57,577 nt of DNA, from assembly GCA_027420455.1 (NCBI GenBank), contig DAIBJA010000025.1:1-57577 (forward strand). The letters are read 5' to 3'. The number at the start of each line of letters is the position of its first letter. The first letter of the stretch is position 1. Source of the DNA: Clostridia bacterium. Its GTDB lineage: Bacteria; Bacillota; Sulfobacillia; JAJZYS01; JAJYTV01. Shown here one piece after another: positions 22,015 to 25,000 of this stretch. The notes below the pieces were generated by a model, which searched no databases, had not been told where the DNA came from, and saw nothing but the letters and a program-made list of their open reading frames with translations. Made by a program: the position numbers and the translations under genes.

Positions 22015-25000
22015 TTGTCCGAAGTCTACGACGCAAGCCAGATCCAGGTCCTTGAAGGCCTCGAGGCGGTGCGCCGCCGGCCAGGCATGTATATCGGGTC
22101 CACCTCGGTGCAGGGTTTGCACCATCTCGTCTGGGAGATCGTCGACAACGCGGTGGACGAAGCGCTCGCGGGCTACTGCACGCGCATCGACGTCGTGCTG
22201 CACCGCGACGGCTCCTGCTCCGTAACCGACAACGGTCGCGGCTTCCCGATCGACCTCCACCCGAAGCTGCAGCGGCCGGGTGTCGAGGTGGCGCTCACGG
22301 TGTTGCACGCCGGGGGCAAGTTCGGCGAGGGGTCCTACAAGGTGTCCGGCGGTCTGCACGGCGTCGGCGCGTCCGTCGTCAACGCCCTAAGCGAATGGCT
22401 CGAGGTGACGGTCCGCAAGGACGGCGTCGTCTACCGCCAGCGCTTCTCCCGCGGCCACGTCATGAGCGAGCTCGAGCAGATCGGCAAGACGAAGGAGCAC
22501 GGCTCGGTCGTCCGCTTCCTGCCCGACGCGCAGATCTTCGAGGACGTGCGCCTCGACCAGGAGACGGTGGCGAACCGGTTGCGCGAGACGGCCTTCCTGA
22601 ACGGCGGTCTCATGATCAATCTCGTGGACGAGCGCACCGGGGAGGAGCGGCACTTCCACTTCGAGGGCGGCATCGGCTCGTTCGTCCGCTACCTCAACCG
22701 CAATCGCGAGGTACTCCACCCCAAGCCCTTCTACTGCTCCGCGGAGAAGGATCGGGTCATCGTGGAGGCCGCGCTGCAGTACAACGACAGCTACAAGGAC
22801 ACGGTGCTCTCGTTCGCCAACTCCGTGCGCACGCATGAGGGCGGATCGCACGAGACGGGCTTCAAGAGCGCCTTGACGCGCCTTTTGAACGACTACGGCC
22901 GGCGCAACGGCATTCTCAAGGAGAGCGAGGATAACCTGAGCGGCGAGGACGTGCGCGAGGGCATCGCCGCCGTCGTGTCCGTCAAGCTCGAGGAGCCGCA
23001 GTTCGAGGGCCAGACCAAGACGAAGCTCGGAAACTCCGAGGTGCGCGGCATCGTCGACCAGGTGGTCGGCGACGCGCTCGGCAGCTTCCTCGAGGAGAAC
23101 CCGTCGGTCGCGCGGCGCATCCTCGAAAAGTGTCTGCAGGCGCAGCGTGCCCGCGACGCCGCTCGCAAGGCGCGCGAGCTGACTCGGCGCAAGAGCGCGC
23201 TCGAAATCAGCTCGCTACCAGGCAAACTGACCGACTGCACGTCGAAGGACCCGGCGGAGTCCGAGCTCTTCATCGTCGAGGGCGACTCGGCCGGTGGCTC
23301 GGCGAAGCAGGGCCGCGACCGTCGCTTCCAGGCGATCCTGCCGATCCGCGGCAAGATCCTGAACGTCGAGAAGGCGCGCCTCGACAAGGCGCTCTCGAAC
23401 GAGGAGATCCGCTCGCTGATCACGGCGCTCGGCATCGGCGTCGGCGAGGAAGTCGACGTGGCAAAGGCGAGGTACCATCGGGTCGTCATCATGAGCGTCG
23501 ACGGCGAGGAGGTCACCTTTGTCCGCGAGCGGAGCGGGATTGTACGCTCGACGAGAGTGGGGCCTTTCATCGACCAGTGCCTAAGCGGCGAGCGGAGCTA
23601 CCTCGACTACGAAGTCCTCTGCTTTGACCTTGGGACGAAGGCCGTGACGTTCATGCCGATCGCGAACGTCATCCGCCATCCATTGGATGAGCCGATCTTC
23701 GAGGTCACCGGCGCTTATGGACGGCGCGTTCGGGTCACTGCGAGCCACAGCGTCTTCGTGCTGGACGAGCAAGGGAACCCGGCCCTCAGGCGGGGCGATG
23801 CTCTGCGTGTAGGTGACCAGTTGCTGGTGCCACGCTCGTTTCCCTTGCAAACACTCCATCGCAAGGTGAACTCCCTGGACATCCTGGCTGGCCTGCACCC
23901 GATCGCTCAGGAGATGCAAGACGATCTCTGGATCCGGGGTTCGTTTGCGGAAGAAATCCTGCGCGAGCGTGCCTTGGCCGCAGCCGCCCCAGCCAGGACG
24001 GCACCGCGAGTCCAGATTTCCTCGGCCGTCGGCAGCCGCCTCGCGCATGCACGCAGAGAGCGCGGCCTCAGCCAGAAGGACGTCTGCGACGCCCTAGGCA
24101 TCCGCCAGCCGGTCACCTTCTACGCATGGGAGAAAGGCAAATCACGTCCCACGCTGGCGCAGTTCCGCCAGTACGTGGCGCTCCTCGGCCTCTCCGAAGA
24201 CAGCATGGTCCAGGAAGTTGCAGTCGGGGAGTCGACGATGGAACGCGTCTGGGCTACGCAGTACCGCGGATCGGGACGCAATGCGGTCAAGCCTTGGCTG
24301 CGGCTGCGCGACCTGACGCGGGAAGATGTCCGTCAGCACGTGGGGGACGCCTGGATCGGCGCGGAAAAGCACGCGAACCAGGCCGTGCGGCGCTACATCC
24401 AGGTCGACGAGCACCTCATGACCATCCTGGGATGGCTTATGGCTGAGGGCACCATCTCGCGCAGAGACAGCATATCCTTGACGTTTGGACCGAACGACGC
24501 CGCAATGCTGGAGGAGGTGGACGCGGCATTCAAGCACACGTTCGGCGTCCAGGGCAGGCGGTACCCACACAGGAACTGCGTCAAGTATTCCGTGCGGAAT
24601 CGCGTCCTCTATTACCTCTTCGAGGATCTCTTCGGCGACATGGAGTCTGGCGCGCACAGAAAGCGCATCCCCGACCTCGTTTTCAACGTGGCGCCAGAAT
24701 TGCAACTGGCCTTTCTCCGCGCCTACTTCCTGGGAGACGGGACCATCGGGCAAGGGCGGATCGCCTTTACCACTGTCTCGCGTGAGCTCTCGTCGCAGCT
24801 CAGCTATCTGCTGCTCAGCCTCGGCGTGCAAGCGGGCATCCATCACATCTCGCCGGGCAACGTTTCTAAGCCTGTACGCGGTGAGCCCGTCGTCACTCGC
24901 CATGATGTTTGGACCGTAGCTGTCACCAACGGACAAGGACTAAGGACGTTGCGCCGAGTGTGGTGCGACCACCGCAATGCGGATAGTGTCGAAAGGCGTC

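Follow-up and report, generated by a model that had tools for sequence, protein, structure and literature searches.

Architecture of the gyrB Intein

The gyrB gene in the analyzed contig of a Clostridia bacterium (57,577 nt, hereafter the window) raises the question of whether an intein carries a DNA-binding domain of the Cro/C1 (XRE) type between its splicing and endonuclease domains and, if so, what this domain would do there. Taking positions 23494-25173 out of the gyrB open reading frame restores the sequence M/TDADVDG of the TOPRIM domain (the slash marks the insertion point), and uninterrupted gyrB genes are present in related genomes. The locus comprises the following features.

22015..25590, + strand: gyrB with the intein, precursor of 1191 aa, spliced GyrB of 631 aa (open reading frame; Pfam DNA_gyraseB, Toprim, DNA_gyraseB_C)
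23494..25173, + strand: intein of 560 aa, class 1 type, in the TOPRIM motif M/TDADVDG (sequence motifs; Intein_splicing; uninterrupted gyrB of related genomes)
23494..23844, + strand: N-terminal half of the Hint splicing domain, residues 1-117 (alignment with same-site HTH-less inteins and the solved mini-inteins 5o9i/5o9j)
23845..24021, + strand: accessory region before the helix-turn-helix (HTH), residues 118-176, ~43% identity between homologues
24022..24216, + strand: Cro/C1 (XRE) HTH, five helices, residues 177-241 (HTH_31 at 24028-24201; AlphaFold2 model; Foldseek)
24109-24132, + strand: predicted recognition helix of the HTH, residues ~206-213
24217..24393, + strand: linker after the HTH, residues 242-300, with the conserved basic motif RGSGRNxVKPxLxLRDL (same motif in the HTH-truncated homologue of G452, see below)
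24394..24858, + strand: LAGLIDADG endonuclease, residues 301-455 (LAGLIDADG_3, E=1.2e-14; Foldseek to PI-PkoII/PI-TkoII, TliVMA and I-DmoI)
25024..25173, + strand: C-terminal half of the Hint domain, residues 511-560

The insertion in GyrB is a class 1-type intein, for which splicing is predicted from the motifs S1, T82-A-S-H85 (TxxH, block B), H559-N560 and Thr at position +1; its splicing domain matches the Pfam family Intein_splicing (E=1.7e-12). The endonuclease is of the intein-associated LAGLIDADG homing type, having two acidic motifs, GWLMAEGT (catalytic acid E318) and AYFLGDGT (D415), and a fold that Foldseek relates to 2cw7, 7qss and I-DmoI. Compared with the inteins of this site that are HTH-less, residues 118-300 are extra and thus form a region additional to the endonuclease and Hint domains; within it, the HTH (residues 177-241) follows Hint block B (TASH, residue 82) and precedes the first LAGLIDADG motif (residue 313).

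Evidence for a Cro/C1 Domain

The original prediction, made from the letters of the window, placed an XRE-type HTH at 24028-24201 between the splicing and endonuclease domains, and proposed a profile search and a structure prediction as checks. Both agree with it. The Pfam family HTH_31 spans exactly these positions in frame, corresponding to aa 672-729 of GyrB (E = 1.1e-8, 35.7 bits, cut-off 27), and the peptide VGSRL...LLGL is encoded at 24028-24192, in frame within the GyrB reading frame. Matches to HTH_3 (E = 4.5e-5, 23.8 bits, cut-off 23) and HTH_19 also fall between the splicing domain and the nuclease. The AlphaFold2 model of the intein, built from a 29-sequence alignment, has a mean pLDDT of 89 and contains helices at residues 177-189, 194-201, 206-213, 221-230 and 235-241, which make up the canonical five-helix Cro/C1 fold.

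Folded alone, the accessory region has a pLDDT of 65 and is modeled poorly outside the HTH. A Foldseek search of the PDB with this isolated region returned restriction control proteins (C-proteins), SinR, BldD, ClgR, HipB, ImmR and lambda repressor with probabilities near 1 and E-values of only 0.01-0.1, because the remainder of that model is poor. The nearest curated profiles to the HTH belong to phage or antitoxin repressors (RstR, DicA, HipB and PHROG repressor profiles). Since an intein of another family with 55% identity has HTH_31 at the same place, and since the AlphaFold2 model has the expected fold, the Cro/C1 HTH inside the GyrB intein is, judging from profiles and model, real and more than a chance match.

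Inteins with and without the HTH at the Same Site

We identified two further copies of the HTH-bearing intein. A second assembly of the same genus, G348 (locus L035), encodes the same intein with DNA 99.8% identical over 4.1 kb. A full-length homologue with 55% identity occurs in G362, which represents another family of the same class, and has the HTH at the same place (HTH_31, E = 1.1e-10). An assembly or frame artefact is ruled out by the same frame in G348 and by the recurrence of the domain order in G362. Between the window and G362 inteins, identity reaches 68% in the HTH, 59% in Hint-N and the nuclease and 56% in Hint-C, versus 43-46% in the linkers. Thus, the HTH is more conserved than the surrounding linkers (p=0.002), while its difference from the Hint and endonuclease parts (59%) is not significant (p=0.20). 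These homologues hardly differ in the segment IRQPVTFxAWEKGxSRPTL. Both inteins have a full-length nuclease; however, the nuclease of G362 has Gln at the first catalytic acid (AQG) and Glu at the second, and its HTH stays conserved, so that HTH and nuclease are not perfectly coupled.

Other inteins at this gyrB site lack a complete HTH. Clearly degenerate ones from several other genomes are 289-342 aa long, with LAGLIDADG motifs broken or missing, and have no HTH. The gyrB intein of G452 (L122:661-2178; 506 aa) combines a full-length nuclease, in which both acids are intact (AEG, GDG), with the absence of HTH helices 1-3. It keeps the flanking accessory region, and its stretch aligned with HTH helices 4-5 has weak but significant similarity (shuffle p between 5e-5 and 0.002). 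In the Hint tree, the window genome (G000) joins G362 (support 0.96), and G452 is next (0.90). Either the HTH helices were lost in G452 or they were gained in the ancestor of G000 and G362; the residual similarity leans towards loss. Since an intact-looking nuclease is present in G452 without helices 1-3, maintenance of the nuclease does not strictly depend on the HTH, and comparison with this homologue shows that any role is modulatory at most.

Mobility of the Intein and Its Flanks

The distribution and flanks of the intein are those of a homing element. It is present in G000 and G348, whereas gyrB is intact and free of the intein in the congeners G345, G346, G347 and G349. Two divergent segments lie on either side of the insertion.

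23449..23493, + strand: segment 5' of the insertion showing excess divergence from the four congeners, putative co-conversion tract (codon alignment)
25174..25218, + strand: segment 3' of the insertion, likewise with excess divergence from the congeners; its first codon, ACC, encodes Thr +1, in place of which the congeners have Ala

In the 45-nt bin 5' of the insertion, the window is 70.0% identical to the congeners, versus 84.4% for the congeners among themselves; in the 15 codons just downstream its identity to them is 79%. The congeners are 84-87% identical to one another in the 15-codon flanks. Further upstream, 15 to 75 codons from the site, identity of the window genome to them is 89-95%. 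Differences private to the window at congener-invariant sites amount to 9/58 near the insertion versus 40/1390 elsewhere (Fisher p=8e-5), for a test segment whose centre was set a priori and whose width was chosen post hoc after binning. A second excess of private differences (16/154) lies at gyrB codons ~50-137 downstream of the site, at the far 3' end, and is not explained by the intein flank. Because of the post hoc width and this comparable excess about 80 codons downstream, the flank test is indicative, not definitive. The divergence of the flanks fits a recent homing event with a short co-conversion tract.

The +1 position points in the same direction. It is Thr in the window and Ala (MADADVDG) in G342, G345, G346, G347 and G349 (L060, L062, L056, L058 and L057, respectively). 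Ala is not a splicing nucleophile, and at +1 it is unable to support ordinary class 1 splicing. Therefore, these intein-free alleles could host the intein only with co-conversion of the flank, and the Thr +1 of the window gyrB probably came in with the intein. The flank is no nearer to any sampled intein-bearing allele that might represent its donor. A shared 3' codon choice (ACCGATGC) was considered as a signature of the homing site; it was consistent in five alleles and fell apart with more.

Rarity of the Domain and Relation to Known Inteins

Among the 100 LAGLIDADG intein regions of the phylum, most of which are in ribonucleotide reductases, a match to the HTH families listed was found in two, namely the window intein and its homologue in G362, and a search with a local Cro/C1 profile found no further HTH-bearing intein in this set. 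Matches of about 320 aa in the phylum search we presumed from their size to be WhiA. The survey covers one phylum and a few viral loci, and archaeal inteins lie outside it. Within this phylum, a common occurrence of the HTH in inteins, which would have counted as a refutation of the original prediction, is thus ruled out for these 100 regions. A viral source was likewise rejected: no close relative was found in IMG/VR, and none of the 17 viral loci with distant relatives of the nuclease has a Cro/C1 HTH. Two weak matches came from phages and two from plasmids; of these four, three fall in the nuclease part and the other is an ordinary HTH protein. In 154 genomes of the class, the whole HTH region matches only the three intein copies, apart from two short XRE matches, which rules out its existence elsewhere as a unit. 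A clear Cro/C1 domain at this intein position was thus found here in only two lineages, as judged by sequence comparison. We found no description of a natural bacterial intein with a Cro/C1 domain in open-licence PMC papers, which is weak evidence of absence.

HTH-like accessory domains of the LAGLIDADG inteins TliVMA and PI-TkoII have been described by Beyer et al. (2022; PMC8966425), who proposed transcription factors as the source of DNA-binding domains captured by inteins. To call the window intein an undescribed system, as the original prediction did, was therefore too strong: HTH accessory domains in inteins are already known from archaea, and what appears to be new is a clear Cro/C1 domain in a bacterial intein. 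The basis of the capture proposal (PMC8966425) is a set of archaeal structures whose sequence resemblance is weak, whereas the accessory domain described here is clearly Cro/C1 by sequence.

PI-PkoII/PI-TkoII, the intein of the Thermococcus kodakarensis DNA polymerase (2cw7), is the best PDB match of the window intein both by fold (Foldseek E=1.3e-27) and by sequence (phmmer E=1.5e-23). It has the same order of Hint, accessory region (~130 residues), LAGLIDADG and Hint-C, and its accessory domain is also described as HTH-like (PMC8966425). However, PI-TkoII is archaeal and inserted in PolB, and the HTH of the window intein has no sequence match to it, the alignments stopping on either side of the HTH; 2cw7 is also absent from the 50 Foldseek matches listed for the accessory region alone. 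TliVMA of Thermococcus litoralis (7qss) is another LAGLIDADG intein, in which the HTH-like accessory domain alters the choice of cleavage site; the isolated domain makes no addition to overall DNA affinity, and its deletion abolished alternative-site cleavage (PMC8966425). This accessory domain connects the nuclease to the C-terminal Hint part, unlike the window HTH, which precedes the nuclease, and the sequence match between the two inteins leaves out the HTH. When the accessory domain of TliVMA was replaced by the 434 repressor domain, the resulting LAGLIDADG intein with a Cro/C1 repressor HTH was nearly inactive on lambda DNA (PMC8966425). That graft is man-made, whereas the Cro/C1 domain of the window intein is natural and conserved; the latter would represent a natural counterpart of the failed graft and is relevant to re-targeted meganucleases.

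Two other groups of proteins show a partial likeness. The phage homing endonucleases I-TevI and I-HmuI have modular DNA-binding parts (NUMOD/HTH) on a homing nuclease (PMC3943268), but are of the GIY-YIG or HNH type rather than LAGLIDADG and occur outside inteins. The WhiA regulators combine a LAGLIDADG-derived domain with an HTH (PMC11701221); however, they are transcription factors of a domesticated type with no splicing domain and an HTH of a different family.

Possible Roles of the HTH Domain

We consider it probable that the HTH is an accessory domain with putative DNA-binding activity that aids recognition of the gyrB homing site. It adjoins the nuclease, where the accessory domains of endonuclease-associated inteins sit. 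Furthermore, it occurs with full-length nucleases, in the two independent carriers known here, and is gone where the nuclease has decayed, which favours a function in homing rather than in splicing or host regulation. The original prediction had named such a DNA-recognition module for homing, which is the best-supported reading; its other suggestions, regulation and sensing of the splicing state, found no support.

Other functions of the domain are less probable. A chance-captured HTH could merely stabilize the orientation of the Hint and nuclease domains without reading DNA. The recognition helix, which by alignment seems to exceed that of ordinary XRE domains by one residue, is in line with such a spacer, as is the retention in G452 of the flanking scaffold and of a stretch resembling helices 4-5 in the absence of helices 1-3; however, the near invariance of the IRQPVTFxAWEKGxSRPTL segment at 55% overall identity and the higher conservation of the HTH relative to its linkers make this unlikely. 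It is decidedly unlikely that the intein, once excised, represses gyrB, the origin region or a mobile element in the manner of a Cro/C1 protein, or that DNA binding modulates its splicing. The repressor-type fold, the conserved HTH of G362 next to an altered catalytic site and the one-for-one production of the intein with GyrB agree with such a role; however, the resemblance to repressors is at the family level only. Cro/C1 regulators are usually dimers that bind palindromes, and in the intein we identified no dimerisation part and nothing of the Cro/C1 repressor type beyond the fold. Moreover, the intein is missing from four congeners, and the HTH has been lost from the degenerate mini-inteins of this site, which are still expected to splice, so that neither splicing nor host regulation would need it. 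We regard as very improbable the stronger proposition that excision yields a true DNA-binding regulator, which acts on gyrB, on the neighbouring origin region or on the homing of the intein itself and is kept even where catalysis fails; if true, a selfish intein would have turned into a splicing-coupled switch of transcription or homing. By analogy with TliVMA, which provides a direct experimental precedent (PMC8966425), the HTH might open secondary sites and thereby aid spread to new places rather than sharpen the recognition of gyrB. This appears quite unlikely, since every homologue found occupies the same gyrB site, and the genomes searched give no sign of second-site spread.

We propose for homing-site recognition the following sequence of events. 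After translation, the Hint halves would splice out the intein, releasing functional GyrB, and the freed intein would act as a two-part DNA reader composed of the LAGLIDADG and Cro/C1 HTH domains. The LAGLIDADG domain would recognize and cut the conserved TOPRIM-coding sequence of intein-free gyrB alleles, while the HTH may contact flanking or nearby DNA and tune affinity and site choice, as in archaeal endonuclease-associated inteins; repair of the cut would copy the intein, together with a short stretch of its flank, into the recipient. Whereas the domain order, the modeled fold, the conservation, the co-occurrence of the HTH with full-length nucleases and the conversion-like flanks are observed, we infer that the intein splices, that its HTH binds DNA, where it would bind and how it would contribute to cleavage. 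Because the accessory domain of TliVMA widened site choice and did not raise affinity, the direction of the HTH effect is not predictable, and an assumption that the domain adds specificity may have the wrong sign. The natural versions at this site, with the HTH, with part of it, or without it and with a decayed nuclease, constitute a ready comparison for the role of the domain.

Genomic Context and Other Inteins

The gyrB gene lies in the following order of origin-region genes (window positions 11916-30373): parB, parA, a second ParB-like gene, rsmG-like, jag-like, yidC, dnaA, dnaN, recF, dciA, gyrB and gyrA, of which ParB, YidC, DciA and gyrB were checked by Pfam and the rest assigned by reading. 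The second ParB-like gene is Noc-like (13522-14286) and accounts for an HTH_3 match at 13867. Between gyrB and gyrA (25643-27930), two genes on the minus strand encode a DUF7309/DUF6930 protein and a cation-efflux transporter. The window genome has a second intein in IMP dehydrogenase (L031, G000:C48), which has relatives (L042-L045, L049) in several congeners and in other members of the family, and a third LAGLIDADG_3 match (L101, G000:C79:11311-11604) within an open frame of 1492 aa.
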